Source: Deltaproteobacteria bacterium
GTDB taxonomy: Bacteria; Desulfobacterota; DSM-4660; Desulfatiglandales; HGW-15
DNA: 41,039 bases
Direction: 5' to 3'
NCBI GenBank assembly: GCA_016930835.1
Contig: JAFGGA010000010.1
Coordinates: forward strand, 1 to 41,039
Shown piece by piece: positions 2,760 through 38,281 of this stretch. How positions within the stretch are numbered: position 1 is the stretch's first letter; each line of letters opens with the position of its first letter. The position numbers and the translations under genes were made by a program. Below the pieces are notes generated by a model, which worked only from the letters and a program-made list of their open reading frames with translations, had not been told where the DNA came from and did no database searches.

Positions 2760-2780
2760 ATGCCGGATCAAGTCCGGCAT
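2760..2780. repeat. palindrome between convergent genes, possible terminator
   Basis: Perfect 8-bp arms ATGCCGGA and TCCGGCAT flank a TCAAG loop. It lies between the convergent membrane-protein and CoA-transferase genes, and the last codons and stop of the minus-strand gene fall inside it. It could act as a bidirectional stop even without a long T run. It belongs to the TCCGGATCAAGTCCGGA class that recurs in the window. Confidence 0.6.
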
Positions 2781-4090
2781 GATAAATTGGGATTTTTTGG
2801 AGGCAAAATCTTTGGAATCCGTTTTAATACATCCGGTGTGGGGATGGTTCCAATGATACCGTCTTTTTCCAGCCCAGTAATCTCATCCTTTGTCATGCCC
2901 AATAATTCGCCGTAAACATAGGTATTATGTTCCCCGAGATCCGGGGCCCTCAGGCGAGTCTTAAGGGGTGTCTTGGATAAATTGATGCCGCGCCCTTTAC
3001 AGATATATTCCCCAAACCCTGGTCGAGGATCATTGATCTTGTCCCAAAATCCTCGTGCTTCCAGATGCGGATCATCAAGCAGATCGATAGCGGTCAAAGC
3101 CGCCCCGGCCGCGATATCCTTTTTTTGCAACAGGGCCATCAATTCTTTACGATCGTGTTGTCTTGTCCAGTCCGCAATGATCTCATCGATTTCCTTGCTG
3201 TGTTTCAGGCGACCGGCGCCATCCAAATATTTCGGTTCAGCTGCCAGATCGAGCCGGTCCATGACCTGACAAAAGATCTCCCATTCCGTATCGCTCCTGA
3301 TTGCGATAGTGATCCAGGAATCCCGGCCTTTACAAGGATAACAATTGTGAGGGGCGTAAACCGGGTGGTTATTGGCCTTTGGACCTGGAACCCGTTTGTT
3401 CATGCTGTAGTCCATAACCAGATCACCGATACAACCGGTCAGTAGCTCCCGCTGGGAGATCACCACATGCGATCCCTCTCCTGTTTTTCGACGATGACGA
3501 AGGGCCGCCAGCGCAAATCCGGCGGCTACGGTACCGGATAGTGGATCCGGGATATTGGTAGCCGTAAACATCCCGATTTCATCCTCATAATCCGAAACGG
3601 AACGAAGACCACTGGTAAAGGCCAATATCTCCGCGTTAGAACCATATGTACGTTCAGGACCGGTATCACCCTGACTGGAGACGGATAAAAGAATAATTTT
3701 TGGATTGGCCTCTTGAAGCACGTTATATGGTATTCCCAATTTTTCCAAGACCCCTATCCTGAAATTTTCAACAACGATATCGCTTTTTTTTACTAACTTA
3801 AGAAAAACATCACGCCCTTTGGTTTGGGAGAGATCCAGGGTGATGCAAAGCTTATTTCGATGCCGTCTTAAATGAAGCATGCCTCGATTCCAAGGTTCCT
3901 CACCCAATTCATTATGCAAATACAATTGGCCCTGGGTAACAATCCTATCCGGGTCCGGGTGTTGGCATGACTCGATTTTAATCACCTCCGCGCCCATATC
4001 CCCCAGGAGTTGTGCACACATGGCGCCGGCCCAAAACATGGAAAGGTCCAAGACCCTTAGTTTTAATGTCTGTTCTTCGTTTTTTGTCAT
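2768..4090 (-). CDS. family III CoA-transferase (CaiB/BaiF), catalytic partner
   Basis: Family III CoA-transferases move CoA between carboxylic acids through an aspartyl-CoA mixed anhydride. The protein shows the family start (LRVLDLSMFWAGAMCAQLLGDMGAEVIKIE, quoted here as a motif region at about residues 10-40), a KGRDVFLKLVKKSDIVVENFR block, and the catalytic region ending in TGEGSHVVISQ. The likely catalytic Asp is D182 in IPDPLSG. I choose the ATG at 4090, one base after the stop of the upstream paralogue and with AAGGGA nine bases before it; a TTG nine bases upstream is the alternative. At 440 residues it is slightly longer than typical for the family. Its partner immediately upstream lacks the Asp, suggesting a heteromeric enzyme of the BbsEF type. 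The last gene of the unit; its stop codon sits in a palindrome. Confidence 0.9.
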   Translation of the reverse strand: MTKNEEQTLKLRVLDLSMFWAGAMCAQLLGDMGAEVIKIESCQHPDPDRIVTQGQLYLHNELGEEPWNRGMLHLRRHRNKLCITLDLSQTKGRDVFLKLVKKSDIVVENFRIGVLEKLGIPYNVLQEANPKIILLSVSSQGDTGPERTYGSNAEILAFTSGLRSVSDYEDEIGMFTATNIPDPLSGTVAAGFALAALRHRRKTGEGSHVVISQRELLTGCIGDLVMDYSMNKRVPGPKANNHPVYAPHNCYPCKGRDSWITIAIRSDTEWEIFCQVMDRLDLAAEPKYLDGAGRLKHSKEIDEIIADWTRQHDRKELMALLQKKDIAAGAALTAIDLLDDPHLEARGFWDKINDPRPGFGEYICKGRGINLSKTPLKTRLRAPDLGEHNTYVYGELLGMTKDEITGLEKDGIIGTIPTPDVLKRIPKILPPKNPNLSCRT

Positions 4091-4091
4091 A

Positions 4092-5264
4092 TCAGACAAT
4101 CCCTTTTTGTTTTAGTTGCATCATATCTTCCTGACCATATCCCAACCACCCGCAAATAATTTCATCATTATGCTCGCCTAGAAGAGGGGCCCGCCCATGG
4201 ACCCATTTTATGTCACCCATCGTGGCAAAGGCACCCGGGTAGGCTAATTTACCGGCGACAGGATGTTCAATTTCCAGAAAATAATGATGGGCCTTATATT
4301 GTTCGGAAAGGAAAAGGTCTTCGACGTCGGCAAGAAAGCCGGTTGTCACACGGTTTTTTTGCATAAGATCATAGATCTCCGATTTTTTCATGTCACATAA
4401 TTTGGACATAATAATGGCGTTTAATTCTTCCGCATTTTCACTGCGTTTTTTCATATCAATAAAACGCTCATCATTTTCCAGTTCAGGCATGCCCAATGCC
4501 TTTGTAAGGCGCGGCCATTCATGGGGAAACGCGCGTATATAAAACCAGCCGTCACTGCATGGCAGCAACATAGGCGCCAGTCTTCGACGAATATCCTCAC
4601 CTCTTGCGAGAGCAGCTTCGATTGTAATAAAATCATCATGCAATAAAGTCTCCTGAATGGACACCTCAACCTTCTGGCCCTCACCCATATTTTCAGCGTG
4701 ATAAAGGGCGGCCAGACTTCCGAAAAAGGCCGATGCGCCCGCCCTATAATAAATAATGTGCCCGCCCATTTTAATGGGTTCCCGATCCGGGCTGCCCTGT
4801 TGAAGCATCATGCCGCTGACCGCTTCCACGACGATATCTTCCGCTTGATAATGGGCGTAGGGACCGTTTTCACCAAAGGGTGTAATCATGGTAAAAACCA
4901 ATGAAGGATGAACCCGGGACAAAGCACCATAACCCAAATCCAGCTGATCCAAAACTCCATGGCCAAGATCTTCTACGATGATATCCGCCTGTTTTACGAG
5001 CTTAAGAAATATGTCCCGGCCCTCTTTTTGGGTAATGTCCAGGGTGATTCCCTTTTTACCCATGTTTAGATATAAAAATAGACCGCTCTTTTCCGGGTGT
5101 GGTTCATCATTGGGAAAAGGCCCCATGTACCTGGATCGTTCCCCTTTGTTCGGCGGTTCGATCTTGATGACGTCGGCGCCAAGCGCGACCATCATCTTAG
5201 TACAGGCGGAAGCGCTGATATGCTCGCTTAATTCCAGGACGGTGATGTCATTTAAAAATGTCAT
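4092..5264 (-). CDS. family III CoA-transferase (CaiB/BaiF) homologue lacking the catalytic Asp
   Basis: This is a full-length (390 residues) CaiB/BaiF-family protein with the usual N-terminal block (VLELSEHISASACTKMMVAL), the GRDIFLKLVKQADIIVEDL block and a GEGQKVEVSIQE segment. Counting back from GEG without gaps, the position of the catalytic Asp (D182 in the downstream paralogue) is Y172. The protein is therefore probably not active alone; known heteromeric enzymes of this family pair one active and one inactive subunit, and translational coupling to the next gene (TGA, one base, ATG) supports a shared complex. AGGA lies close before the ATG. An independent role, such as a divergent transferase using another nucleophile, cannot be excluded. 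Confidence 0.88.
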   Translation of the reverse strand: MTFLNDITVLELSEHISASACTKMMVALGADVIKIEPPNKGERSRYMGPFPNDEPHPEKSGLFLYLNMGKKGITLDITQKEGRDIFLKLVKQADIIVEDLGHGVLDQLDLGYGALSRVHPSLVFTMITPFGENGPYAHYQAEDIVVEAVSGMMLQQGSPDREPIKMGGHIIYYRAGASAFFGSLAALYHAENMGEGQKVEVSIQETLLHDDFITIEAALARGEDIRRRLAPMLLPCSDGWFYIRAFPHEWPRLTKALGMPELENDERFIDMKKRSENAEELNAIIMSKLCDMKKSEIYDLMQKNRVTTGFLADVEDLFLSEQYKAHHYFLEIEHPVAGKLAYPGAFATMGDIKWVHGRAPLLGEHNDEIICGWLGYGQEDMMQLKQKGIV

Positions 5265-5340: not shown

Positions 5341-6624
5341 TCAACCCTTTCGTTCTTTTATGATCTCGATAAGCGCCTGCAGTTTTAAATCAACCGAGGC
5401 CTCGTTGTAATACCTTGGATCCGTATGGTCCGCTTCAATAACCGCCACCGGTATGCCGTATCTTTTCTCAATCAGCTTGGCCATATCATATTCCTGCATT
5501 GACCATGGACGGCAACTCCTGGGTGAATGGAGGATCGCCCCATCTATTTCATAACCGTCAACATATTCATGGACCTCTTCTCTCATCTTGAAATCAAGCG
5601 TCCTCGTGTAACCCCGGGTGGTCACATTCCAGGCTATAAAGGTTAAAGGATCATCATCGGTCCCGAATCCGTCAGGAGGAAAAAGCCCTCTTGCATGGGG
5701 ACCCACTCCGCCAAAGCCGTAACCTGATGTGGCCAGGCAGATATCCTGGGGCGCCATCCACCTGCTCATCTTACCTACTGCGTACCAGGGAAAATTTCCA
5801 CGCCACATCAATCTGTATTTTTCATCAGGAAGAGCCACAATCCCGTTCTTTACCCTATCCTTTATTTCCAGGAGCATCTCCTCATAAAACTCCACGAGTT
5901 CCTGATTTCTAAGCTGGTTGTAAGGACCCATGGCTATCATCTGGTCGAATGCGCTCATAATAGCCGGTTTTCTTTTACAAAGCTCATCAATCTCAGCACG
6001 GATCTCGGCGATCCTTCTCATTCTTCCGAAAACGATATTATTCAGGGCATCCCAGTTATAAGGCCTGCCCGTGTTCTCTTCGATAAAAGTGATAAAATCT
6101 TGAAGCTGCGACCTGGTGTATTCAACGGTCTTCATGTAGGTCTCATCATCGTCGTCATATATAAAGGGACAGTCAACGCCAAACATGGGGACGTCGAAAA
6201 TGCGTCTCAGACTATCCGCCCATTGGACCATCGCGGGACAGGTGTTTCCGGCCCATATAAAATCCGGCTTGGGCACTCGGTATCTTTCATGATCCTCCCG
6301 CCACTGGCCTTCCACAATATAAAGAGCGGATCCTACGTTAATCCTTGTATAGGAGCAGGTATCCGTCGGCCAGCCCTCTTTTTCCGCCTTATCAATATAA
6401 TACATGTGCTCCTGTCCGGCAGAAATCCTCGCGGCCTGATTTTCGGTATGAAAACTCGCGACATCCTGCGCGGCCAATATCTCAAAAGGACTCGCCCCCA
6501 CACACCAGCAAACCTTTCTGCCTTCAGAGGGGGCCCGCCGAATGTCTTCGTAAAATTTGTCCATCATGCCTGATATTTGTGCCGTGCATTTTAAACGATT
6601 ATATCTTTTGCGCTGTTCTTCCAT
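5341..6624 (-). CDS. 2-hydroxyacyl-CoA dehydratase subunit (HgdB/BcrB-like)
   Basis: The protein belongs to the 2-hydroxyglutaryl-CoA dehydratase/benzoyl-CoA reductase subunit family. These subunits each hold a [4Fe-4S] cluster and, after injection of one high-potential electron by an ATPase activator, dehydrate 2-hydroxyacyl-CoA through ketyl radicals. Family features include CWCVGASPFEIL near residue 39, and likely cluster ligands C90 (TDTCSYTR), C129 (GNTCP) and C371 (PRSCRPW). The C-terminus has VIEADHTDPR, the usual substrate and fold segment. At 427 residues the length is normal. AGGAG precedes the ATG, and two bases separate it from the partner subunit upstream. The substrate cannot be read from sequence. 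Confidence 0.9.
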   Translation of the reverse strand: MEEQRKRYNRLKCTAQISGMMDKFYEDIRRAPSEGRKVCWCVGASPFEILAAQDVASFHTENQAARISAGQEHMYYIDKAEKEGWPTDTCSYTRINVGSALYIVEGQWREDHERYRVPKPDFIWAGNTCPAMVQWADSLRRIFDVPMFGVDCPFIYDDDDETYMKTVEYTRSQLQDFITFIEENTGRPYNWDALNNIVFGRMRRIAEIRAEIDELCKRKPAIMSAFDQMIAMGPYNQLRNQELVEFYEEMLLEIKDRVKNGIVALPDEKYRLMWRGNFPWYAVGKMSRWMAPQDICLATSGYGFGGVGPHARGLFPPDGFGTDDDPLTFIAWNVTTRGYTRTLDFKMREEVHEYVDGYEIDGAILHSPRSCRPWSMQEYDMAKLIEKRYGIPVAVIEADHTDPRYYNEASVDLKLQALIEIIKERKG

Positions 6625-6626
6625 TC

Positions 6627-7766
6627 TTATTCTCCTTTTATCAACTCCACAAATGCCTGGATCCGGGTCTTAATCGGATCAAAGGAAGTCACCTCATGCT
6701 CCGTTTCAATGAGTAATTCGGGGATTCCGGCGTCACGGCATGCATAACGGACCCATGGATAGATATGACAATGGGCCTCGCAAAATTTCGTGATGATATT
6801 GATGATGCCGCCGGCCCGGCTTTTTTCGACCATGTTCACCAGGTATTGCCCCAGATCATTGGACGGGTCCTGGGTCGTAGGGCATGGAGGGACCATGTCG
6901 ATATACCGATCCGCAAGGGCCTCCAACGGATCGTTTCCATCTGAAACCCTGGTCAGAAAATATCTCGATCCCACATACAGGTCATCATCGACAACACAAC
7001 CACCGACATCCTCAATGATATCCAGTATCTCCTCGGGCATCTCGCCGCAGAGACTCCCGGAGAGGATTATTTTTACCCTTTCATCCTCGGAAAATGAATC
7101 AGTCCGAATTTCGGAGAGGAGATCTTTCAGCAGTTGGTTGTGCTCTTCCTTGGGCATCTGCATTCCGGCCAGGATAATGTGCTGCATCTGGCCTGCCTTC
7201 ATAATGCCGGGATGTCTTCTTCTCATTTCATACAATTCCGCCATCAGGTCACTATTTTCATTGTATATCTCGATACTCCGGTGTAAGGCATCCACCGTGA
7301 TCTCCTTACCCCAAAAATCTTCCAGGCTGCCCTTGAGCTTCTTTAATTCCTCCAGAAGCCTTTGTTTTGTCTGTTTTTGTTTAAGGATCTTGGGGAACCA
7401 TATAGGCTTGATATATTTTATATTGTGGGCATTTAGCTTAATGATATCGACCGAACCCCTGATTTCATGACAGCAGTCATGTATCACCATACCATCCAGA
7501 AAATCCAGCTTCCCCTTGCATGCAAGATCCGTGACCCCACGAACCGGACCGCACATGTATGACTGCCAATGTTGCGCACCCAGCGTTATAGGCTCTCTTC
7601 CGTTAAAAAGGATGACAGGCAATATATCCAGGGCATGAATCATCTCTTCGGGCACATAAAGCCCCCAGCATCCGATGATCTTTTTCCCGGTCTCTTTCTT
7701 CCATTCCTCCAGTCTCTCGTAATACGGCTGTGAGTTCATTTTATCAAACAGACTAAGTGTTTTCAT
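6627..7766 (-). CDS. 2-hydroxyacyl-CoA dehydratase subunit (HgdA/BcrC-like)
   Basis: This second subunit of the dehydratase (379 residues) has the family signature GCWGLYVPEEMIHALDILPV at about 32-51, then likely cluster ligands C72 (YMCGPVRG), C98 or C99 (HDCCHEIRG) and C329 (KFCEAHCHIYP), and the closing motif ETEHE...R..AFVELI. It is co-transcribed with the following subunit (2-base gap), as expected for a heterodimer. GGAG lies nine bases before the ATG. The gene follows the ABC importer genes in the same unit, which suggests that the imported compound or a product of it is the dehydratase substrate. Benzoyl-CoA reductase is less likely because only one ASKHA activator gene is present. 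Confidence 0.9.
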   Translation of the reverse strand: MKTLSLFDKMNSQPYYERLEEWKKETGKKIIGCWGLYVPEEMIHALDILPVILFNGREPITLGAQHWQSYMCGPVRGVTDLACKGKLDFLDGMVIHDCCHEIRGSVDIIKLNAHNIKYIKPIWFPKILKQKQTKQRLLEELKKLKGSLEDFWGKEITVDALHRSIEIYNENSDLMAELYEMRRRHPGIMKAGQMQHIILAGMQMPKEEHNQLLKDLLSEIRTDSFSEDERVKIILSGSLCGEMPEEILDIIEDVGGCVVDDDLYVGSRYFLTRVSDGNDPLEALADRYIDMVPPCPTTQDPSNDLGQYLVNMVEKSRAGGIINIITKFCEAHCHIYPWVRYACRDAGIPELLIETEHEVTSFDPIKTRIQAFVELIKGE

Positions 7767-7849: not shown

Positions 7850-8884
7850 CTATCTCTCCAGCTTCAGGATTGTTTCCTGTCTTACGACATCAATCCGTGA
7901 TGCATCCTGGCCTGTGTATAAATGACACGCGACATAATGACCCGGCCGGACTTCCTTAAAATGCGGAGCAATTTCCCTGCAATCGCTGAAAACAGCCGGA
8001 CAACGGGGATGAAAAGGACATCCCGGCGGCGGATTGAGAGGGGACCCCACCTCACCGCGCAGGACAATCTTAAACCCCGCTCCGGGTTTTGTCATGATAC
8101 TTGAAGCGATAAGTCCCTGGGTATAGGGATGCAGTGGTTCGGTGCACAGGATTCCTGATGGGGCCTGCTCAACGATATGACCCAGGTACATGATTGCAAT
8201 CTCGTGACTCATGAAGCGGATGGTACTGAAATCATGGGCTATGACCAGGAAGCTTATGCCGAATTCCTCGGAAAGGTCCTTCAATAAATTCATGATGCCC
8301 GATCGCATGGAAACATCAATGGAGGAGACCGGTTCATCCAGCACGATCATCTTTGGATTGGCGCTCAAAGCGCGGGCAATGGCTATGCGCTGACGTTGCC
8401 CGCCGCTGAACTCATGAGGAAAGAGGTTCGCATCCTCGGGTCGTAGCCCGACATTCTGGAGAAGCTCGGAAACCCTGTTCTCGGCATCTTTCTTTGAAAT
8501 CCTCATGTTAATAATAAGTGGTTCGGATACGATATCCTTAACCCTCATACGCGGGTTTAAAGAGCTCGACGGATCCTGGAACACCGCCTGGGTCCTCTGC
8601 TTGTATCTTCTTCGGTGCCAGGCGCTTAATTGCGTGATGTCACGGCCTTCCCAGGTTATTTTTCCATCGGTCGGATTTTCAAGGAGCAAGAGCATCCTGG
8701 CTGTAGTCGTTTTTCCGCATCCGGATTCACCCGCCAGGGCAAGGCTACGCCCCTGGAATATCTGAAACGAGATATCGTCAACGGCCTTCACATAGGCGAC
8801 AGGTCGTCTGAAAATCCCCTTTGTAATCGGAAAATATTTTTTTAGATGGCTAACCTTTATTATCGGTGCTTCATTGTCCATCAT
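7850..8884 (-). CDS. ABC importer ATPase, DppF/OppF type (system A)
   Basis: This is the second nucleotide-binding subunit of a peptide/nickel-type ABC importer, powering uptake at the inner face of the cytoplasmic membrane. Motifs: Walker A GESGCGKTTTARMLL near residue 54, a Q-loop in AVFQDPSSSLNPRMRV, signature SGGQRQRIAIARAL, Walker B MIVLDEPVSSIDV, and H-loop LVIAHD. The C-terminal oligopeptide extension (about 270-344) has the CPFHPRCP motif and further Cys that may hold a cluster or disulfide in this family. The start overlaps the stop of the upstream ATPase gene (ATGA). It is the last transporter gene before the dehydratase genes. Confidence 0.93.
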   Translation of the reverse strand: MMDNEAPIIKVSHLKKYFPITKGIFRRPVAYVKAVDDISFQIFQGRSLALAGESGCGKTTTARMLLLLENPTDGKITWEGRDITQLSAWHRRRYKQRTQAVFQDPSSSLNPRMRVKDIVSEPLIINMRISKKDAENRVSELLQNVGLRPEDANLFPHEFSGGQRQRIAIARALSANPKMIVLDEPVSSIDVSMRSGIMNLLKDLSEEFGISFLVIAHDFSTIRFMSHEIAIMYLGHIVEQAPSGILCTEPLHPYTQGLIASSIMTKPGAGFKIVLRGEVGSPLNPPPGCPFHPRCPAVFSDCREIAPHFKEVRPGHYVACHLYTGQDASRIDVVRQETILKLER

Positions 8885-9849
8885 CAGGCATACCTCCAGC
8901 AGGACACTGAATGTCCTTCACTCACAAAAAATTCTTCCGGGTAAGCCTGTCGGCATTTATCCATCGCATGGGGACAGCGCGGCGCAAAGTAGCAACCTTG
9001 GGGTAAAGCAAAAAGCTTGGGTGGCTGACCCGGAATGGATGGGAGTCGTTCGATATCACAATCAACCGGAGGAATGCTGGTGACCAAGGCCCTGCTGTAT
9101 GGGTGCAATGTCTCTTTGAAGATCTCGTGAACCGACCCCTTCTCAACGATCTTACCTGCGTACATCACCGCAACCTGGTCACATATTCTAAAAATAAGGG
9201 AGAGATCGTGACTGACATAAAGGAGGGCGACATTATAGGTACTTTGGATATCTCTGATCAGATTAATGTATTGGGCTTGAACACTCACATCCAGGGCCGT
9301 TGTCGGCTCATCGGCAATAATTAAATCAGGATTACATGATATCGAGATTCCACCTACGACCCTCTGGCGCATCCCTCCGCTCAACTGGTGAGGATAACAT
9401 TCCAGTCGTTTCTCTGGATCACCGATACGGACCTTCCTTAGAATCTCTGTTACCCGTTCTTTCAATACCTGTCTTTTCTTTAATCCCAGATGGATCTGAA
9501 TAGGCTCCGTCATCTGTTTTTCAATATTAAATACAGGGTTCAGCGACGTATAAGGGTCTTGGGGTATCATACCGATTCTCTTGCCGCGAATCTTCTCCAG
9601 TTCCCCCTCGCTTTTTTGAACCAGGTCTTCACCATCAAAAAGGATTCGTCCACTGACGATCCTCCCGGCGGGCCAGGGCAGTAATCTCAGGATGGAAAGC
9701 AATGTCATACTTTTTCCACACCCGGATTCCCCCACAAGGCCGAGGGTTTTACCCCTTTCCAGTGAAAAGCTGGTCCCATCCACTGCTTTTACGGTTCCCC
9801 AACGGGTGTAAAGATAGGTATGCAAATCCTCTATTTCAAGAAGCGCCAT
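8884..9849 (-). CDS. ABC importer ATPase, DppD/OppD type (system A)
   Basis: This is the first ATPase of system A. Motifs: Walker A GESGCGKSMTLLSIL, Q-loop MIPQDPYTSLNPVF, signature LSGGMRQRVVGG, Walker B LIIADEPTTALDV and H-loop LLYVSHD. The C-terminal oligopeptide/dipeptide extension with GCYFAPRCPHAMDKC is present. The signature is followed by GGISISCNP where most relatives have AMALxxxP, a small deviation outside the catalytic core. The coding end overlaps the next ATPase by one base and the start lies two bases after the permease stop, so the genes are translationally coupled. The specificity of the system is set by the binding protein, not by this subunit. Confidence 0.93.
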   Translation of the reverse strand: MALLEIEDLHTYLYTRWGTVKAVDGTSFSLERGKTLGLVGESGCGKSMTLLSILRLLPWPAGRIVSGRILFDGEDLVQKSEGELEKIRGKRIGMIPQDPYTSLNPVFNIEKQMTEPIQIHLGLKKRQVLKERVTEILRKVRIGDPEKRLECYPHQLSGGMRQRVVGGISISCNPDLIIADEPTTALDVSVQAQYINLIRDIQSTYNVALLYVSHDLSLIFRICDQVAVMYAGKIVEKGSVHEIFKETLHPYSRALVTSIPPVDCDIERLPSIPGQPPKLFALPQGCYFAPRCPHAMDKCRQAYPEEFFVSEGHSVSCWRYA

Positions 9850-9851
9850 AT

Positions 9852-10739
9852 TTACATCTGCCTTAATTTCGGATCCAACCGGTCCCTTAACCAGTCTCCA
9901 AACATATTAAACGCCAGCACGACCAGGACCACGGCCGTTCCCGGAACTGTGGATAGCCATAATCTGGTTGCAACATAGTCTCTGCCTTCCGAAACCATTC
10001 GGCCCCAGGAAGGAGTGGGGGGCGGAATACCCGCTCCCAAAAAACTGAGCACAGCTTCGGAAAGAATGGCCCAACCGACCATAAGGGTGATAAGCACCAT
10101 AATGGTATTCGCTATGTTGGGTAGGAGGTGCCTGAACATGATACGAAAAGACGAGGCCCCGGCAACCTTTGCCAGCAAAACAAAATCACGTTCCATAATG
10201 CTGACTGCTTCTCCCCTGAGGCTCCTGCAGTAACGCGCCCAGACGATAAAGGCCATGGCGATGATGACATTCCAGAAGGATGGCCCGAAAACAATGGCCA
10301 GGATCATACCTATGAATATAATGGGCAAGGGTTGAAGAGATTCAACCACGCGCATGATCACATTTTCCACCCAACCCCTGAAGTAGGCCGCCATCAGGGC
10401 CGCGGAAACACCGATAAAGGCTCCCAGGGCCAACGCCAGCACGGCGACGGAAAGAGATACCCTGCTCCCGATAATAATTCGGCTCAACATATCACGTCCA
10501 AGCTTGTCCGTCCCCAGGGGATGACTCCAGTCACCTTCTTCATGCCATACCGGCGGTTGCAGCCGATTAATGAGATCACTTTCCTCAGGGTCGTAGGGTG
10601 CGATATACTTGCCGAATAGCGCACATATGATGGTAATGGATATGATTACAGCGGGAATAATTGGCGGGAACCTGGGCACACTCCGGCCCCTGCCGCCTCG
10701 AATGAGATAAGAAAAAATCGCTGTAATAGAACGTATCAA
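9852..10739 (-). CDS. ABC importer permease, DppC type (system A)
   Basis: This inner-membrane permease has the DppC/OppC layout: an N-terminal helix (about 28-49), a conserved periplasmic segment with HPLGTDKLGRDMLSR, and five further helices. The cytoplasmic coupling (EAA) loop is visible as REAVSIMERDFVLLAKVAGAS-like sequence around residues 180-200 and ends in LPNIANT. The start is a TTG at 10739, which has GGAGG eight bases upstream; no ATG in a suitable position has a comparable ribosome site. It follows the DppB-like permease by about 30 bases. It forms the transmembrane heterodimer with that protein. Confidence 0.92.
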   Translation of the reverse strand: MIRSITAIFSYLIRGGRGRSVPRFPPIIPAVIISITIICALFGKYIAPYDPEESDLINRLQPPVWHEEGDWSHPLGTDKLGRDMLSRIIIGSRVSLSVAVLALALGAFIGVSAALMAAYFRGWVENVIMRVVESLQPLPIIFIGMILAIVFGPSFWNVIIAMAFIVWARYCRSLRGEAVSIMERDFVLLAKVAGASSFRIMFRHLLPNIANTIMVLITLMVGWAILSEAVLSFLGAGIPPPTPSWGRMVSEGRDYVATRLWLSTVPGTAVVLVVLAFNMFGDWLRDRLDPKLRQM

Positions 10740-10770
10740 AAATCAATCCTCCAAAATTCTCAGGATTCCA

Positions 10771-11688
10771 TTATCCGAGCCGAATCCTTGGGTCAAGATA
10801 CGAACTCAGGATATCAACCAAGAGATTAATAAAAATGGCGAAAAATACAAAAAGTGTCACACAACCCTGAACAACCGGCAGATCCCGTTCAATGAGCGCC
10901 GAGTACATCAGCCGTCCCAGACCCGGCCATGCAAAAACGGTTTCTACAACAACCGAACCTGTAAGGAACATGGCGATCTGAACACCCGCAAAACCCAGTA
11001 CGGGAAGCAACGCGTTACGAAGGGTGTGTTTCCAGATAAGAGGACGTTTTCGAACCCCTTTCATCCGGGCAAACCGAACAAAATCGCTGTCCAGGGTATC
11101 AATCATGCTTGATCGTAAAAGCCTCACCAGGCCAGCAATCAGCAGTGTCGACATGGTGATGGCTGGAAGGATATAGCTGCTAGGGCCGCTCATGCCACCG
11201 GCGGGAACAAGCCCCAATCTGACCGCGATTAATTCTATAAGTATAATCCCCATCCAGAATCCGGGGACTGACATTCCAAAGACGGCGAATACACCTATGG
11301 ATGATTCGATAAGCGTAAACCTTTTTACGGCCGCAACAACCCCCAGAGGAATAGCGATGATAATACTTAGAACGACCGTAACTGCGGCCAGTTTTATGGT
11401 GTTTATGGAGTGTGTCAGCAGAAGATCACTTACAGGTCGAAGGGATTTGTGCGATTGTCCGAAGCTTCCGGTCGCTATATCTTTAAGATAGAGGAAATAT
11501 TGAATGTATAGAGGTTTATCGAGACCCATGCCCGCGGCGATACGTTTGATGTCTTCAGGTGTGGCGTCGGTTGGAGCAAAGGCCTCCGCTGGATTACCGG
11601 TCATCCTGACCAGGAAAAACATGATGGTTAAAAACACAAACAGTGTAACAAATAACTGCAACAATCTTCGTAAAATAAAAGATCTCAA
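10771..11688 (-). CDS. ABC importer permease, DppB type (system A)
   Basis: This permease begins with the DppB/OppB hallmark (RRLLQLFVTLFVFLTIMFFL, first helix), followed by a periplasmic segment with GLDKPLYIQYFLYLKD and GSFGQS, then five helices. The coupling loop around 205-230 reads DFVRFARMKGVRKRPL-like and is followed by HTLRNALLPV. The C-terminus DPRIRLG is family-typical. The start is a TTG at 11688 with AGGTGAG just upstream. It is separated from the upstream binding-protein gene by 135 bases containing a strong hairpin (11769-11791), which may reduce expression of the membrane subunits relative to the binding protein. Confidence 0.92.
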   Translation of the reverse strand: MRSFILRRLLQLFVTLFVFLTIMFFLVRMTGNPAEAFAPTDATPEDIKRIAAGMGLDKPLYIQYFLYLKDIATGSFGQSHKSLRPVSDLLLTHSINTIKLAAVTVVLSIIIAIPLGVVAAVKRFTLIESSIGVFAVFGMSVPGFWMGIILIELIAVRLGLVPAGGMSGPSSYILPAITMSTLLIAGLVRLLRSSMIDTLDSDFVRFARMKGVRKRPLIWKHTLRNALLPVLGFAGVQIAMFLTGSVVVETVFAWPGLGRLMYSALIERDLPVVQGCVTLFVFFAIFINLLVDILSSYLDPRIRLG

Positions 11689-11768
11689 ATCTCACCTGAC
11701 CCAACAAGTTGATATTTTGTCTTCTGAAATGATGATCTTGCTGATATATAAGCCTGGAGCACACTATT

Positions 11769-11791
11769 GAGGGCCCTGTAACAGGACCCTC
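11769..11791 (-). promoter_or_regulatory. intercistronic hairpin after the binding-protein gene (system A)
   Basis: Arms GAGGGCCCTG and CAGGACCCTC (plus-strand reading) form a 10-bp stem with one wobble or mismatch and a 3-base loop. There is no T run on the minus strand. It lies in the gap between the binding-protein gene and the permease gene. Such hairpins in importer operons commonly stabilise the upstream message or lower read-through. System B has a hairpin in the same relative place. Confidence 0.6.
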
Positions 11792-11823
11792 ATTGACGAT
11801 ATTTACCGCCCTAAACCGATAGA

Positions 11824-13524
11824 CTACTTCTTCCCTTCCCACTCTACGGGATGATATTGATCATCTTCATACTCCGGCGGATAGATGGCCATATCGGCTA
11901 CTCCCACAGCATCAATAAAACCCATATTGATATTCCATTTCGGCAGGACACCCGGACGGGCGGCGAAAATCCTCGGGGTGAAGAGGAAGCCTGAACCCGG
12001 AGCAATCTGGTCGATGGCCCGGTCCATGATTTCAGAATACGTGTTCCAGTATTCATCCCAATTTTTGGCAGCGATCAACTTATCGGTCAGATCATCCATG
12101 CAACGAAGGCTTTCCAGGTCTTTTTGAGGAATGTTCGGATTCACCTGCACCTTGGGCGGGATCTGTATAAGGTGATGCCTGCCACCTTTTTCCGGTGAAG
12201 TGGCATATAGGGTCGGGTAGTAAACCAGGTACTTTCTACCATTCTTGAGATAGATGCCGGAACCGAGTTTTGCATCCTGCCATTTTGGACGGATCGTCTT
12301 ATAGTCCTCTAATTGGATATCCACATTTAACCCGGCTTTTCTGAGCATGGCGGCGAGGGCCTCCACATGTTGTGACTTTATCTCCCCCCTGATCACGGCA
12401 AAGAACTTTAATCGGTAATCCTTGGGAACTTCCCTGGCGATGATTTTTTTGGCGGCCTCCAGATCATACGGAATGGGCTTCCGGGTCACCATGTCTCTGG
12501 GATCAACAACCTGTGCGAGATTGCCACCGTCATTGATATAATCTCCTGCACCGTAAAAAAATGCCTTGTTAAATGCCTCCTTGTCAATGGCCATCATAAT
12601 GGCCCTGCGGACCTCTTTATTGGCCAGAACAGGATCCTTGTAAGGCTCGGTAAAAAAGATGGTCAATAAGGTGCCGGTGGGTTTTTTGATTATCTGAAGT
12701 TTGGCCTTTTCCAGTTCCGGAAGTCTCTCAAAGCTGAATTCCGCGACATCAAGTTCGCCCGTTTTGAGCATGGCCAGTCGGGTGGACTCTTCAGGTATAG
12801 CCATGTACTGCACCTCTTGATATACCGGTTGACGAAAGGGGTGTTGGGGCCAGGCCTCAAACCTGATTAATGAGCCTTCAACATGTTCGACTATCTTATA
12901 GGGACCTGATCCCATAGATCCGTCCACCAAGGCCTTTGGGCCGTTTTTTTCGATATAGTGTTTGGGGACCATCCGCCCAAATTCACCAAGGCCACTCAGA
13001 ATGTCGGCAAAGCGGAAATTAGGAGTGGCAAGATGAAAGCGGACCGTGTAGTCATCGATAACCTCGATCCTTTTGTCCACTTCCTTATCAGCATTTTTGC
13101 CCCCCATCAATTCCGTAATCAACTCGACCCGGCCTGCCCGGGCGCCAGGCTGCCAATTTCTGGGTATGGAGAACTTAACATCATGAGCGGTTATGGGTGT
13201 CCCATCCCACCATTTTGCATCTTTCCGCAGATGGAAGGTCCAGACCGTATTATCATCGCTTGCCTCCCATTTGTAGGCTATACCCGTCCTCGGGTCTATT
13301 TCGGAGCGGTTCGTATTTACCCCTACTAGATCCATATAGACCATGTACTGGTAGGAAGCTACCCCTGAATGGTATATAGGGTCAAATACTTCTGCGTCAA
13401 AACTGGGTACAGCGAATTTCAAGATCCCTTTTGGCTCTGCAGCTCCAACTATCCCACCTGATGTTGCAAGAACAAAAAAACTCGTCAAAACCAGAACCAG
13501 ATTTTTAATGAATGATACTTTCAT
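11824..13524 (-). CDS. periplasmic solute-binding protein, SBP_bac_5 family (system A)
   Basis: This is the extracytoplasmic receptor of importer A (566 residues). It has a cleavable signal peptide (residues 1-29, ending GGIVGAA before EPKG) without a lipobox, so it is soluble in the periplasm of a Gram-negative cell. Family features: a WTFHLRKDAKWWDGTPITAHDVKFS block near 90-115, a GSGPYKIVE block near 205, and LANKEVRRAIMMAIDKEAF near 300. SBP_bac_5 proteins bind peptides, nickel complexes, opines or other small organics; the ligand cannot be read from this sequence. GGAGG sits close before the ATG. It is the first importer A gene and follows the amidohydrolase gene. Confidence 0.92.
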   Translation of the reverse strand: MKVSFIKNLVLVLTSFFVLATSGGIVGAAEPKGILKFAVPSFDAEVFDPIYHSGVASYQYMVYMDLVGVNTNRSEIDPRTGIAYKWEASDDNTVWTFHLRKDAKWWDGTPITAHDVKFSIPRNWQPGARAGRVELITELMGGKNADKEVDKRIEVIDDYTVRFHLATPNFRFADILSGLGEFGRMVPKHYIEKNGPKALVDGSMGSGPYKIVEHVEGSLIRFEAWPQHPFRQPVYQEVQYMAIPEESTRLAMLKTGELDVAEFSFERLPELEKAKLQIIKKPTGTLLTIFFTEPYKDPVLANKEVRRAIMMAIDKEAFNKAFFYGAGDYINDGGNLAQVVDPRDMVTRKPIPYDLEAAKKIIAREVPKDYRLKFFAVIRGEIKSQHVEALAAMLRKAGLNVDIQLEDYKTIRPKWQDAKLGSGIYLKNGRKYLVYYPTLYATSPEKGGRHHLIQIPPKVQVNPNIPQKDLESLRCMDDLTDKLIAAKNWDEYWNTYSEIMDRAIDQIAPGSGFLFTPRIFAARPGVLPKWNINMGFIDAVGVADMAIYPPEYEDDQYHPVEWEGKK

Positions 13525-14793: not shown

Positions 14794-15630
14794 TTAGTTC
14801 GCTTCATAAACCTTTGAACTTGTATAATGGACGCTTTGATCGTTCCCTTTCGATGCAAGGTAACGTTCCATCGCAATGATAGCCGCTCCCAGTGCCCCAA
14901 TGATTTGAGGGTCTGCCGGAATAAATATCTTTGTAGATAACTCTTTTTCGAGTGCTTTTACCACACCGATATTTTTTGCGACACCGCCGGTCATGGTTAC
15001 TTTCTCTTTTATCCCCACGTGTTGAACCATCACGCTCACCCTCCTGGCGATGGCCTGATGAATCCCATTTAAGATATCGCGGCTGTCGTGACCGGATGCA
15101 ACCGCGGAGACCACCTCTGATTCCGCGAATACCGTGCACATGCTACTGATCTCAACCTTTTTTTGGGATTGCAGGGATAATTCCCCCATTTTGTCCAGAT
15201 CGGTTTCAAGCGCCTTTGCCATAACCTCAAGAAACCGGCCGCTGCCGGCGGCGCATTTATCATTCATGGTGAAATTGACGGGTCTGCCCATATCGTTAAC
15301 GGAAATGACCTTGCTGTCCTGCCCCCCGATATCGATGATCGTCCTTGTTTCGGGAAATAGGTGATGGGCGCCCCTCGCATGACAGGTTATCTCCGTCACT
15401 TCTCCATCTGCGAATGGAATATTTTTTCTCCCATAACCGGTCCCGATGATGGATGCGATATCATCGCGATTCAAGGATGCCTTTTCCAATGCGTTTTGAA
15501 ATGATTCTTTCCCGGCCCTTTCACTTACCGCCCCCGTGGGAAAAATACTGCGGCCGATAATCCTAAACTCATCGTCAATGATTACTGTCTTTGCGGTCAA
15601 GGACCCGATATCAATACCTGCGAAGAACAT
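14794..15630 (-). CDS. hgdC: 2-hydroxyacyl-CoA dehydratase activator (HgdC-like ASKHA ATPase)
   Basis: This 278-residue protein is the ATP-driven electron donor (archerase) of the dehydratase. It shows the ASKHA phosphate-binding strands (FAGIDIGSLTAKTVIID and DIGGQDSKVI), GTGYGR, the helix after NDKCAAGSGRFLE, SSMCTVFAESEVV and TGGVAKN. Two cysteines, C126 and C165, match the pair (one per subunit pair) that hold a single [4Fe-4S] cluster between the two halves of the homodimer. It is the first gene of its transcription unit, 453 bp downstream of an operator-like palindrome, and about 8 kb upstream of the dehydratase subunits on the same strand. A BcrD-type reductase subunit is the alternative, but its BcrA partner is absent. 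Confidence 0.92.
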   Translation of the reverse strand: MFFAGIDIGSLTAKTVIIDDEFRIIGRSIFPTGAVSERAGKESFQNALEKASLNRDDIASIIGTGYGRKNIPFADGEVTEITCHARGAHHLFPETRTIIDIGGQDSKVISVNDMGRPVNFTMNDKCAAGSGRFLEVMAKALETDLDKMGELSLQSQKKVEISSMCTVFAESEVVSAVASGHDSRDILNGIHQAIARRVSVMVQHVGIKEKVTMTGGVAKNIGVVKALEKELSTKIFIPADPQIIGALGAAIIAMERYLASKGNDQSVHYTSSKVYEAN

Positions 15631-16185: not shown

Positions 16186-17316
16186 TCACTCAAGTGGAAT
16201 GATGACTTCATCATCATTCCAAACAAACTGAGCGTCCAGTTCAGCTTCCCGGGTGATCTTCTTCACGTAGTCGAAGACCTGATGACCTTTCTCATCATTT
16301 TTAAGGATCTCCGGTTGGGCTTTGGTGTTCACGAGGCAAGGCAGGTAACCGACCTTCATAATTTTTCCGGATTCAATTCTACATTTGGCGATAATGGTCC
16401 ATTTCGCTTCAGGATGAAATGGATAGCACGCGGGATATTCAGGATCGGGTTCAAAGCCAAAAACCTCTTTTCTCCTTTTGGCCCATTGTTTGGAATCCTT
16501 AGTGGAATCAGCTGTAAGGTGCCTTACGACCGTCACAAAATTACCCAAACCATGGAAAATAACCTTTCCATGATAAACTTCAATGCCTTTTAAGATATGT
16601 GCATGGTGCCCCAGAATCAAATCCGCCCCTGCGTCGATTGCAGCATGAGAAATATCTTTTTCATATTTCGCCAGCTTGACAGGGGTGTGGCCGATCCCTT
16701 TATGCAATGAGACGATCAAAACATCACAATCAACCCTGAGGTCTCGGATATCTCGCAGCATGGCTTCGAGACTGCTTGGTTCCGGGAAAGTATAAATACT
16801 CGGTATACCGCCCGGCGTAGGGTGATCCAACCTGTAATGGGTGATAATGTCCACATAAGCGCATCCGGCTTTGTCCTTTGTGGCCCATGTTCTTTCCGGC
16901 CCAACGCAATTATAATCCAAAAACCCTATTCGGGTTCCATTCCTCTCAATAAGAGCTGGCTTTCTGGCCTCATCGATATTCATCCCGGCTCCCACCGTGG
17001 CAATGCCCTGGTGTCTGAGGCCATGAATCGTATCTTCAATGCCCGGTGGGCCCGAATCCCAAATGTGGTTGCCGGCAAGGGTCGCGACGGTCAAGCCCGC
17101 GAAACCGAATGAGGAGATATTTTCAGGATCACACGGTGGTGATGAGACACCTGTTGATGTGACAAATCCCCTTGACGTAAAAACATGTTCCACTTGCCCC
17201 ACGAAAATATCAGCATCTCGAAGTGTTGGGGCGGTCAATTCAAAAAAGGTTTGAGCATCGGGCAGGCCAAGGGACATGTCCCCAACACCCAAAAGCGTGA
17301 GTGTCTTATCCATCAT
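16186..17316 (-). CDS. CapA-like (PGA_cap) metallophosphatase-fold protein 1
   Basis: This 376-residue protein belongs to the CapA/poly-gamma-glutamate synthesis family, which has a calcineurin-like metallophosphatase fold. Visible motifs: GVGDMSLG near residue 10 (metal-binding Asp), AGNHIWDSG with the family NH pair near 80, FLDYN near 127, VSLHKG near 200, and GADLILGHHAHILKGIEVYHGKVIFHGLGNF near 230-262, quoted here in part. There is no signal peptide or anchor, so unlike capsule CapA it should be cytoplasmic. It is the second of two tandem paralogues (35-bp gap) at the end of the first catabolic unit. Function in the pathway is unknown; a hydrolase for a gamma-linked amide or phosphoester is possible but not shown. 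Confidence 0.85.
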   Translation of the reverse strand: MMDKTLTLLGVGDMSLGLPDAQTFFELTAPTLRDADIFVGQVEHVFTSRGFVTSTGVSSPPCDPENISSFGFAGLTVATLAGNHIWDSGPPGIEDTIHGLRHQGIATVGAGMNIDEARKPALIERNGTRIGFLDYNCVGPERTWATKDKAGCAYVDIITHYRLDHPTPGGIPSIYTFPEPSSLEAMLRDIRDLRVDCDVLIVSLHKGIGHTPVKLAKYEKDISHAAIDAGADLILGHHAHILKGIEVYHGKVIFHGLGNFVTVVRHLTADSTKDSKQWAKRRKEVFGFEPDPEYPACYPFHPEAKWTIIAKCRIESGKIMKVGYLPCLVNTKAQPEILKNDEKGHQVFDYVKKITREAELDAQFVWNDDEVIIPLE

Positions 17317-17351: not shown

Positions 17352-18473
17352 TTAGGATCGAACCGAGACCTCGTTATCTTCTACGACGAACTTGACATCG
17401 AGTTTCTGCTCCTTCGAGATCCTTTCCATGTAAGTAACAACATCGTTGAAACGAGTATCCGAAGGCATCAATATCTCAGGTTGCGCGTATTTATTGATAT
17501 AGGCGGGAATGAAAGAAACTCTCTGTATTCGCTTTTCGGAGATGATGCATTTGACGAGCATGGTTTTTCTTGAATCAGGTGGATACCCGTAGCCGATATA
17601 TTCCGGATCCACATCCCATGGGTAACGCTCCCTCATGTTTTGATACCCCTTATCTTTCAACACAAATTCCGCGGAGACATCAAAGGCAAAATTGCCCAGG
17701 CTATAGAAAATGACCTTGCCCTTATAGACCTCCACCCCTTTCAGGATATGCGCATGGTGACCGATAATGATATCGGCACCCGCGTCAATAGCGGCATGAC
17801 CCGCCTCTTTCTGATACATGGCAATGATCGAAGGCGCGAAATGAACACCCCAGTGTATTGACACGACAAGGATATCCACCAGAGGCCTGACCTTCTTGAT
17901 ATCTTCAACCAGTGCATCCAGGTCTTTTTTTTCCGCAAAGGAGACTATTTTAGGGGGTGTTCCAGCCTGCCAGTCAACCTGTTCATAGAACGTTTTGGCC
18001 CGTAGAGGAGCACATCCGGGTGTGCCGGCTTCCGCCTGATAACCACGCGGTACCACCGAATTATAGGCAAGAAAAGCGACACGTGTCCCTTTTCGCTCAA
18101 TAACCACGGGACTCCTGGCCTCATTGATATTCTTTCCCACACCTATGACATCAATGCCCTTTCCCCTCAATAAATCAATGGTGTCAAGGAAGGCATCTTC
18201 TCCCCAATCCATGCAGTGATTGCTGGCAAATGACAGGATATCGAATCCTGCAAATGTCAGAGCGGAGACATTGGCCGGATCAACCCTTGAATGATGTGAC
18301 TTGATCTGAACCTGAAGATTGCCTTTATTGGATAAAATCCGCTCGAGCTGGCAAAACGAAATATCTGCTTCCCGAATATATGGGGCGGCATGCTCAAATA
18401 TGGACTCGGGTTCTTTGCGGTCCGGTCCCACATCCCCCACTGCCAAAAAAGATATCGTTCCACTATTCACCAT
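17352..18473 (-). CDS. CapA-like (PGA_cap) metallophosphatase-fold protein 2
   Basis: This is a paralogue of the neighbouring CapA-like gene, 373 residues and collinear throughout. Motifs: LAVGDVGPDR near residue 10, ASNHCMDWGEDAFLDTIDLL near 83, FLAYNSV near 130, VSIHWGVHF near 205 and IIGHHAHILKGVEVYKGK near 240, followed by the family LGNF. It also lacks a signal peptide. Where the sister has GDMSLG, this copy has GDVGPD, so the first metal-binding loop differs. The pair probably arose by duplication and may form a heteromer or act on two related substrates. It follows the MmgE/PrpD gene by about 50 bases on the same strand. Confidence 0.85.
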   Translation of the reverse strand: MVNSGTISFLAVGDVGPDRKEPESIFEHAAPYIREADISFCQLERILSNKGNLQVQIKSHHSRVDPANVSALTFAGFDILSFASNHCMDWGEDAFLDTIDLLRGKGIDVIGVGKNINEARSPVVIERKGTRVAFLAYNSVVPRGYQAEAGTPGCAPLRAKTFYEQVDWQAGTPPKIVSFAEKKDLDALVEDIKKVRPLVDILVVSIHWGVHFAPSIIAMYQKEAGHAAIDAGADIIIGHHAHILKGVEVYKGKVIFYSLGNFAFDVSAEFVLKDKGYQNMRERYPWDVDPEYIGYGYPPDSRKTMLVKCIISEKRIQRVSFIPAYINKYAQPEILMPSDTRFNDVVTYMERISKEQKLDVKFVVEDNEVSVRS

Positions 18474-18522: not shown

Positions 18523-19932
18523 TTACATGAGTAATCGGATGATATTACTCATATCTTTTACTTCTTCCAAGACCTCGACTTGATCGATAAATTTTTCAAT
18601 ATTTTTTTCAGGTATTGATTTTACGGAAAAGGAGATACAATCCTTAAATTTTTTTAGGAGGCTTTCCTTGCTGACCGGTTTCTCAGGTGATCCATACACC
18701 ACATCGTCCTGTCTTGAAAAAATCTTTCCATTCTTTGTCGTTATCTCTATGACCGGTTGCACTTCTTTACGCTTTTCGGCAATATCCGGAAGATACTCAT
18801 AGGAAATCTTATCAGCCATTTCAAGTACGGATGCATCTTTTAATCCATCCGGGGTATAATCCTTCAGGGTGACATTTCCTTTAACGGCCGCTATGGCCAC
18901 GGTAAACGGGACGCTATATTTGGCATCAATGGCCTCCTTGGGTCTGCGTTTCGACTCAATGGGCTCTGACAATAATTGAACATGAGGAGACCCCCCGATA
19001 ATCTTAATACCTGATATTTCATCCTGCTTGATATTATTTTCCCGCATAAGCTCGATCGTAGAATAGATAGACGAATGCGTTCCCCCGCAGGCAGGCCATG
19101 GTTTAAATTGGGTATTGATGCCGTCAAATCGACTACCCAATTCGCCCACAAGCGAATCCCGATCAGGCTCGGCCTGAAGATACACTTTAAAAAGCCCATA
19201 CTTTCCCTCAAAGCTGTCCCTGGAACCTGTTACACCACGCTGGGCTAAAAGCGCGGACAGGACGCCGCCCTTACCGGTCCAGGCAGCCTGTATCGCTCGG
19301 GTCTCAGTGGCGAGGCCCGTTCCCATCTGCCTGTTCCCGCTTAATTGGGCATAAGCGATCCCGATTGCATTCACCATCTGGTCTGCTGTCAGACCCAAAA
19401 GCTTTCCAGCGGTTACCGTTGCACTGATGAAACCGAAAAGTTGAGTAGCAAACCAACCCTTGTCCATGGTCCATTCATCACGCCCTTGAGGGCTCAGTGT
19501 GATAGCTCGCCCCAGCCTTATAATAATATCATTGCCAAGAGCGACCGCGGAAATAAAATCTTTTCCACTGACATTTCCGAGCCTTTCGGCCACCGCAAGG
19601 CCCGGCAGCACGGTTGTAATACTCGGATGGGTTTTTCCGAGCATGTGCATATCATCATAATCAACCATATGTCCCATGGCCCCATTGGCAAAGGCCGCCA
19701 TCCAGCAAGGGACCTTACCCCCGAACGACAAAATGGAGCTTTCTTCCGTTCCACCTCCCTCCTTTACAAGGTTGATTATTTCTTTGGCTACTGGATCAAG
19801 GGTGGATGCCGCCATGGTCACACCAACGGTATCAAGGATTCCTCTTCTGGTCATTTCAATGATTTCCGAAGAAAGATTCGGATAGTTGGTGTTTACGATA
19901 TATTCAGCGAGATCAAAACTTGCGTCCCTCAT
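18523..19932 (-). CDS. MmgE/PrpD family protein
   Basis: The protein (469 residues, a normal length) belongs to the MmgE/PrpD superfamily, which includes 2-methylcitrate dehydratase, cis-aconitate decarboxylase and iminodisuccinate epimerase. Visible family features: LDTVGVTMAAS near 30, AFANGAMGHMVDYDDMHMLG near 85-104 with the conserved His-x3-Asp-x-Asp-Asp-x-His arrangement, THPSITTVLPGLAVAE, AYAQLSGNRQMGTG near 195-205 and FKPWPACGGTHSSI near 275. These enzymes act on di- or tricarboxylates without metals or cofactors. Context (CoA-transferases, dehydratase, amidohydrolase) is consistent with catabolism of a dicarboxylate-like compound. AACGGAG precedes the ATG. The exact reaction cannot be assigned. 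Confidence 0.88.
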   Translation of the reverse strand: MRDASFDLAEYIVNTNYPNLSSEIIEMTRRGILDTVGVTMAASTLDPVAKEIINLVKEGGGTEESSILSFGGKVPCWMAAFANGAMGHMVDYDDMHMLGKTHPSITTVLPGLAVAERLGNVSGKDFISAVALGNDIIIRLGRAITLSPQGRDEWTMDKGWFATQLFGFISATVTAGKLLGLTADQMVNAIGIAYAQLSGNRQMGTGLATETRAIQAAWTGKGGVLSALLAQRGVTGSRDSFEGKYGLFKVYLQAEPDRDSLVGELGSRFDGINTQFKPWPACGGTHSSIYSTIELMRENNIKQDEISGIKIIGGSPHVQLLSEPIESKRRPKEAIDAKYSVPFTVAIAAVKGNVTLKDYTPDGLKDASVLEMADKISYEYLPDIAEKRKEVQPVIEITTKNGKIFSRQDDVVYGSPEKPVSKESLLKKFKDCISFSVKSIPEKNIEKFIDQVEVLEEVKDMSNIIRLLM

Positions 19933-20182: not shown

Positions 20183-21154
20183 TCAATTCAACAAATGACA
20201 CTGTGCCCAATGTCCGGGAGTCACCTCTCTGAATACCGGCTCTTCCCTGCTGCACTTCTTCATGGCTTCGGGACAACGGGGATGGAAACGGCACCCGCTT
20301 GGTATGGAGACCGCACTGGGCACCTCCCCTTTGGCCATGACGTTTACCCTCTTCTTTTCTAGGATCGGGTCCGGTATAGGAATAGCTGAAAGCAAAACCC
20401 GGGTGTATGGATGCATGGGTTTCTCATACAGATCCGTTTTTGGTGAAATCTCCACAATCTTCCCCAGATACATTACAGCGATAATATCGCTGATATGATG
20501 AACAACCGAAAGGTCATGGGATATGAAAAGATAAGAAACCTCTGTTCTCTTTTGAAGCGAAATCAGCAAATTGATGATCTGCGCCCTGATGGAGACATCC
20601 AGGGCAGAGACCGGTTCATCGCAAACAATAAAATCCGGTTGCACGACCATGGCGCGAGCGATGCACACTCGCTGCTGCTGACCGCCGCTGAGCATGTGGG
20701 GGTATCTTTCACCGATATCTTCCGGCAATCCGACCATGCCATAAAGCATGAGCAACCGATCATTTATTTCATGCCTATTGAAATGGCCTTGTATAACGAG
20801 CGGCTCGGCAATAATGCGCCTTACTCTATGTCTCGGATTCAGAGAGTTGTATGGGTCCTGAAACACCGCCTGCATTTTGGCGATCAGGATCTTCTGCCGT
20901 GTCATGCTGTCATAGAATATTTCCTCACCATCAAATATGATCTTTCCCCCGGTGGGCGGTATGGTCTGTAAAATACATCGTCCCAATGTCGTTTTTCCAC
21001 ATCCGCTTTCACCGACAAGCCCGAAAGTTTTCCCCTTCTCTACCGTAAAGCTGACGCCATCAACGGCTTTTACATTGCCTATTTGGTGTTTGAAAAAGCC
21101 CTTGGTAACCGGGAAATATTTTTTCAGTTGATCAATCTTCAGGATTGTATCCAC
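20183..21154 (-). CDS. ABC importer ATPase, DppF/OppF type (system B)
   Basis: This is the second ATPase of importer B (323 residues). Motifs: Walker A GESGCGKTTLGRCIL, Q-loop AVFQDPYNSLNPRHRV, signature LSGGQQQRVCIARAM, Walker B FIVCDEPVSALDV and H-loop FISHD. The C-terminal oligopeptide extension with SGCRFHPRCPEAMKKC is present. The start is a GTG at 21154 with GAGAG upstream, 23 bases after the preceding ATPase gene. It is closely similar to the system A counterpart (LKKYFPVTKGFF at the N-terminus in both), so the two importers derive from a common type but have a different gene order. Confidence 0.93.
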   Translation of the reverse strand: MDTILKIDQLKKYFPVTKGFFKHQIGNVKAVDGVSFTVEKGKTFGLVGESGCGKTTLGRCILQTIPPTGGKIIFDGEEIFYDSMTRQKILIAKMQAVFQDPYNSLNPRHRVRRIIAEPLVIQGHFNRHEINDRLLMLYGMVGLPEDIGERYPHMLSGGQQQRVCIARAMVVQPDFIVCDEPVSALDVSIRAQIINLLISLQKRTEVSYLFISHDLSVVHHISDIIAVMYLGKIVEISPKTDLYEKPMHPYTRVLLSAIPIPDPILEKKRVNVMAKGEVPSAVSIPSGCRFHPRCPEAMKKCSREEPVFREVTPGHWAQCHLLN

Positions 21155-21177
21155 AATATTCTCTCTTCAGAAGATGC

Positions 21178-22143: not shown

Positions 22144-22200
22144 GTACCCGAATATCCTAAACCCTTCGTTCCAGCATGGGGGTGTATTCCTTATAATATC

Positions 22201-22236
22201 GGGGCCCCGGACTGGCCATCAATTCCCGGGGACCCC
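22201..22236 (-). promoter_or_regulatory. intercistronic hairpin after the binding-protein gene (system B)
   Basis: Arms GGGGCCCCGG (22201-22210) and CCGGGG-A-CCCC (22226-22236) form a 10-bp GC-only stem with one bulged base and a 15-base loop. No T run follows on the minus strand, so it is more likely an mRNA stabiliser or partial block than a full terminator. Its position directly after a binding-protein gene matches the hairpin in system A. Confidence 0.65.
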
Positions 22237-22247
22237 CACAACAAGCT

Positions 22248-38270: not shown

Positions 38271-38281
38271 GATAAGGGTTG

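Follow-up and report, generated by a model that had tools for sequence, protein, structure and literature searches.

We propose, with a probability that we put at roughly 0.85 on the evidence of comparative sequence analysis, that two adjacent genes of a Deltaproteobacteria bacterium together encode a single family III CoA-transferase, an interlocked BbsEF-type heteromer in which one pocket would be live and the other dead. The downstream protein possesses the catalytic Asp of the family (D182), whereas the upstream protein has Tyr (Y172) in its place. Both genes lie in the window, by which we mean the whole stretch of 41,039 nucleotides that was analyzed (contig JAFGGA010000010.1 of the assembly GCA_016930835.1). 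The positions of these genes and of their relevant neighbors are listed in Table 1. The absence of Asp from the upstream protein looks like the usual state of an old, BbsEF-like branch of E subunits rather than a local oddity, as judged from the relatives compared below.

Table 1. Positions of the CoA-transferase genes, their catalytic-column codons and neighboring genes in the window.
Feature	Position	Strand	Basis and remarks
Upstream (E-type) family III CoA-transferase subunit	4092..5264	-	390 aa; PF02515, E 2.3e-83; E branch
Downstream (F-type) family III CoA-transferase subunit	2768..4090	-	440 aa; PF02515, E 3.2e-94; F branch
Y172 codon TAT, at the catalytic Asp column of the upstream protein	4749..4751	-	alignment
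D182 codon GAT, predicted nucleophile of the downstream protein	3545..3547	-	alignment
HGD-D protein, HadB-like dehydratase subunit	5341..6624	-	PF06050, 1e-51; closest solved protein 3o3m chain A, 1.7e-38
HGD-D protein, HadC-like dehydratase subunit	6627..7766	-	PF06050, 1.2e-72; closest solved protein 3o3m chain B, 2.3e-59
Acyl-CoA dehydratase activase (would donate electrons to the HGD-D pair)	14794..15630	-	TIGR00241, 294 bits (cut-off 125)
Five-gene peptide-type ABC importer, perhaps for uptake of the substrate	7850..13524	-	four genes by translations read; binding protein PF00496
Second peptide-type ABC importer set	20183-25887		binding protein PF00496

The gene pair and its catalytic column

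Both reading frames are open on the minus strand, the upstream one from the ATG at 5264 to the TGA at 4094-4092 and the downstream one from the ATG at 4090 to 2768, with the length of 440 aa counted from this ATG (the list of open reading frames places the start three codons earlier, at the TTG at 4099). The TGA of the first gene and the ATG of the second are separated by base 4091 alone, as the original prediction had it. PF02515 matches both proteins over its full length, with 316.5 and 280.8 bits against the curated cut-off of 23.3.

The original prediction also held that Y172 of the upstream protein stands opposite D182 of the downstream protein, and it proposed a multiple alignment as a check. 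In a MAFFT alignment with four solved proteins these two residues share one column with the catalytic Asp of formyl-CoA transferase (10uh in the PDB) and of 4ed9, so that the residue numbers given earlier prove exact, and the pairwise HMMER alignment to 10uh places Y172 in the same way. A chance slip of the alignment was considered and rejected, as the two methods agree. According to a scan of the sequence, residues 163-190 of the upstream protein include neither Asp nor Glu, which excludes a near-neighbor residue standing in for the missing Asp; another Asp at the catalytic position, which would have spoken against the original claim, is likewise absent, the position being occupied by Y172. 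On these alignments the upstream protein is a member of PF02515 by fold and by sequence, but is predicted not to be an independent enzyme of the Asp mechanism. AlphaFold2 single-chain models calculated from three-row alignments, one per subunit, had mean pLDDT of 39.0 and 46.1, i.e. low confidence.

The nearest solved relatives of the two proteins are two different chains of one crystallized heteromer (9fn0/9fol/9fun). The best match of the upstream protein in the PDB is chain A of 9fn0, a benzylsuccinate CoA-transferase subunit (3.3e-47), and that of the downstream protein is chain B of the same entry (2.8e-55); that chain A is BbsE and chain B is BbsF is our reading of the two subunit labels. 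In the catalytic column chain A has Tyr and chain B has Asp, and thus the change from Asp to Tyr is also a property of BbsE. The genes bbsE and bbsF are adjacent to each other. The likeness to the window pair comprises two paralogous subunits that differ at the same column, one having Tyr and the other Asp, the window proteins matching chains A and B, respectively. For the BbsEF type an alpha2beta2 complex is described (PMC5592240).

The E and F branches across genomes

The genome from which the window derives (hereafter the source genome) contains 29 matches to PF02515, which form 14 adjacent pairs, including the window pair, and one single protein that has Asp. Thirteen pairs are readable, the E partner of the 14th being truncated at the end of a contig; in each of them Asp in one partner is combined with Tyr (12 pairs) or Phe (one pair) in the other. 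The split into one partner with and one without Asp in 13/13 pairs has P = 0.0008 when the labels are shuffled among the 26 genes, a value that shows only that the split is non-random, because the labels are strongly tied to phylogeny.

In a careful tree of 53 proteins, calculated after two fragments were dropped, all 24 upstream-type proteins fall on one branch and all 24 downstream-type proteins on another (supports 100/99 and 100/98 for E and F, respectively), where types were assigned from the column residue in pairs of the source genome and, elsewhere, from similarity to the window pair in tblastn. BbsE lies inside the E branch and BbsF inside the F branch; formyl-CoA transferase, 4ed9 and the single protein of the source genome lie outside both. 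The window genes are adjacent and sit on the E and F branches, respectively, and the window pair and BbsE/BbsF are alike in having a residue other than Asp in E and Asp in F. In both branches the sisters of the window pair are the same two loci, L030 and L031, which come from Dehalococcoidia UBA1123 and a SAR202 bacterium, and both have Leu in the E subunit. Since the nearest E relatives have Leu, the Tyr of the window protein and that of BbsE may be of separate origin.

A quick tree was also calculated from 114 rows (118 minus four fragments), which were gathered by similarity to the upstream protein of the window and hence are not a census. It contains 50 E rows, of which 43 lack Asp, as well as 46 F rows and 18 others, all of which have Asp. 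These provide 46 E-F units, in which E comes first in 42, F comes first in one and the two are fused in three. The F partner has Asp in 46/46 units and the E partner has a different residue in 38 of the 45 readable ones, with the residues of E distributed as Y 19, G 7, D 7, E 3, Q 2, L 2, F 2, S 1, A 1 and H 1, and one unreadable. As seven of the 45 readable E subunits keep Asp, loss of this residue is not a defining trait of E. An E subunit with Asp may be active. On the tree, Asp was lost eight times within E if no regain is assumed, while one early loss would instead need four regains. Among the individual loci, L033, L034, L035, L036 and L085 are E-F pairs with Asp kept in E, in which both pockets could be live. 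Four further E rows lack an F within the stretch that was fetched: L046 extends beyond the end of its locus, L069_5636 is near a contig end, L086 is at a contig end that holds the start of an F gene, and L091 has no F partner within about 5 kb on either side. Scans of contigs with the upstream protein found two relatives in genome contigs and none in viral contigs.

A second genome, that of L030, was analyzed with all its 88 PF02515 matches, fetched as 46 stretches that yielded 86 domains after merging; the FastTree tree was built without the catalytic column, and six fragments were excluded. All 25 domains of the F branch have Asp, and 22 of the 25 domains of the E branch lack it (Q, E, Y, H, L, W, M, A, S and F are found instead), with weak support for the E branch (0.555) and full support for the F branch. 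The 30 remaining domains comprise 25 with Asp, four with Ser and one with Ile. Exactly one Asp is present in 24 of 27 paired or fused units, two in three units, and none in no unit; only 3 of 200,000 label shuffles gave no unit without Asp. In this unit count the L106 trio is mis-paired (its E with Asp belongs to an F 0.56 kb away), and E and F of L130, 1.1 kb apart, are counted as singles, which leaves the branch counts unaffected. The pair of L030 is present in both this data set and that of the 46 units. Judging from these sequences, Asp is lost elsewhere in the family too, separately from the E branch; Ser occupies the column in the first domain of three fused proteins and in one single protein (L139, L143, L144 and L146), all of which are outside it. 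In addition, a family III CoA-transferase gene at L147 (G439:C150) is split over frames, being either broken or the product of an assembly fault.

The distances among E subunits mirror those among F subunits. For the 13 pairs of the source genome the Mantel correlation is r = 0.949 (0 of 10,000 permutations were as high, the best being 0.574), and it is 0.924 without one near-duplicate; over 45 units r = 0.921. Because the first of these sets consists of pairs from one genome, species history is no simple explanation of the mirroring. This bears on the alternative that the operon encodes two separate homodimers, of which the Asp protein is the CoA-transferase and the Tyr protein is another enzyme or a CoA-binding protein. 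Such an arrangement would agree with E residues that are invariant on their own terms (e.g. K34, G41, T74 and G82, which are specific to E), with the E of L091 that has no F nearby, and with the variation of the column residue among E subunits, as is possible for new functions. However, the mirrored distances within one genome, the existence of fused E-F proteins, and the placement inside both branches of BbsE and BbsF, which were crystallized together, argue against it, and we regard two homodimers as unlikely. The BbsEF-like reading with one partner lacking the nucleophile, which was the substance of the original prediction, is thus supported at the level of sequence by the grouping of the upstream protein with BbsE and of the downstream protein with BbsF, by the Tyr of BbsE and by the mirrored distances.

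Proposed subunit roles and domain asymmetry

Family III CoA-transferases consist of two interlocked subunits, and each pocket is bounded by the Rossmann domain of one subunit and by the small domain of its partner (PMC9196870). The catalytic Asp is found at the final helix of this Rossmann fold and is converted to acyl-anhydride and aspartyl-CoA states (PMC9813914). Since the pocket is built from both subunits and only F has the Asp, an E-F dimer should hold one live and one dead pocket. In the proposed mechanism, D182 would attack the donor acyl-CoA, the reaction would pass via the anhydride and then aspartyl-CoA, and the CoA would be handed to the acceptor acid. The E subunit would be retained as an indispensable scaffold and, in the live pocket, would provide a variable lid that fits the substrate. 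The acid would probably be activated for the neighboring enzyme, which resembles 2-hydroxyacyl-CoA dehydratases.

The two halves of the subunits differ in conservation. Over 39 pairs the mean pairwise identity is 0.434 in the Rossmann domain and 0.266 in the small domain of E, and 0.417 and 0.420, respectively, in F, with domain borders that are approximate, having been transferred from mesaconyl-CoA transferase with the Asp as the reference point, and with the small domain of E being the harder part to align. In 13 single or solved reference proteins the identities are 0.470 (Rossmann) and 0.330 (small domain). When the E and F labels were swapped within pairs, 0/400 swaps reached the observed contrast of 0.172 (the best gave 0.092). 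As the small domain of E is variable and that of F is conserved, the live pocket would have a variable lid and the dead pocket two conserved walls. We infer that E may supply the substrate fit and that the dead pocket may be retained for structure or for CoA.

It is very unlikely that Tyr172 is itself catalytic, or that a neighboring residue takes over, with both pockets working. This possibility is favored by the retention of Y, F or H throughout the subgroup on the BbsE side of the E branch (24/24 members), but E subunits also show G, L, A, S, Q, E, M and W in the column, the segment 163-190 of the upstream protein is devoid of acidic residues, and the known mechanism requires an aspartyl anhydride (PMC9813914). 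Least credible of all is a decaying duplicate or a sequencing error behind the Tyr, for although GAT to TAT needs a single base change, E evolves only slightly faster than F (mean identity of 0.379 for E-E vs 0.405 for F-F), the reading frame and the E-specific residues are kept, and most rows of the E branch share the absence of Asp; the E branch is, by these signs, apparently not decaying.

Operon surroundings and related systems

Directly upstream of the CoA-transferase genes in the operon are the two HGD-D genes, whose products among solved proteins match the two subunits of 2-hydroxyisocaproyl-CoA dehydratase best and benzoyl-CoA reductases less well. Their scores are below the NCBIfam equivalog cut-offs, and therefore they are not HadBC itself. 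In the source genome 10 of 20 HGD-D matches are located in the regions up to 5 kb from a CoA-transferase pair, which make up 2.3% of the genome (binomial p 5e-12, to be read with the fact that genes of one cluster are not independent). HGD-D-like genes adjoin six of the 14 pairs, while five pairs sit on contigs under 10 kb, where the neighbors cannot be judged. The six pairs beside dehydratase-like genes suggest activation of an acid before its dehydration. An obligatory association of E-F with HGD-D was also considered and dropped: in 20 stretches from 15 other genomes that contain the closest relatives of the second HGD-D protein, tblastn at E 1e-8 found no match to the CoA-transferases of the window. 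Coupling to dehydration may thus be particular to the source genome.

The neighborhoods of the pairs in the source genome are further enriched in genes for MmgE/PrpD, PGA_cap and peptide-type binding proteins. The catabolic cluster of the window includes two adjacent PGA_cap (CapA-like) proteins (16186-17316 and 17352-18473), for which a weak NCBIfam match is a peptide epimerase; five of eight PGA_cap genes in the genome are within 15 kb of a CoA-transferase pair. An MmgE/PrpD protein is encoded at 18523-19932, and its relatives adjoin pairs on four contigs of the source genome (C204, C224, C28 and C132). The cluster contains two full sets of peptide-type ABC importers, and seven of 17 such binding proteins in the genome are within 15 kb of a pair. 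Two adjacent OmpA/MotB-like proteins, recognized from the translations read, are encoded at 37479-38270 and 38279-39007.

These surroundings distinguish the window from the BbsEF system. Its neighbors are HGD-D proteins, an activase and ABC importers, and no genes of the bbs beta-oxidation pathway were found among the 10 window proteins scanned with profiles or recognized in the other translations read. Moreover, BbsE and BbsF are on long branches, distant from the window pair. FldA-FldBC and HadA-HadBC resemble the window in having family III CoA-transferase genes beside an HGD-D pair, with an activase in the same cluster. However, FldA and HadA are single-gene transferases, whereas the transferase of the window is a two-gene E-F pair. 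The DddD type (fused double CaiB) is similar in having two family III domains per chain, and in the fused proteins of the present data set it is the second domain that has Asp; the window genes, on the other hand, are separate. SmtAB and SptAB, the latter named as a family III enzyme in PMC11659651, are by description further two-gene family III CoA-transferases and in this respect like the window pair.

The window pair is a further member of a well-populated E-F group. What is added here is that the small domain of F is conserved and that of E is variable, which suggests, at the level of alignments, the pattern expected if E supplies the substrate-fitting lid. It is tempting to extend this tentatively, in a picture that we consider rather less probable than the reading of the window pair itself and would not wager on, to the whole branch, which may consist of half-site heteromers with catalysis confined to F. 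The dead pocket, made up of the Rossmann domain of E and the small domain of F, would remain conserved, perhaps as a permanent site for holding CoA or for coupling, with the small domain of E as an exchangeable lid setting the acid specificity, and the 14 pairs of the source genome as paralogous, exchangeable acid activators, six of which would feed radical dehydratases.

The residue in the catalytic column, together with the placement on the E or the F branch, provides a simple annotation rule for "CaiB/BaiF" genes of anaerobes and of SAR202-like Chloroflexota: the pair should be found, and the nucleophile is certain only in F. We recognized no statement of this rule in the literature searched, which had few subscription journals, and we do not call it unpublished. 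The expression of E alone is expected to fail. Finally, the asymmetry between the domains leads to a testable claim on where in these enzymes the choice of the substrate is written.
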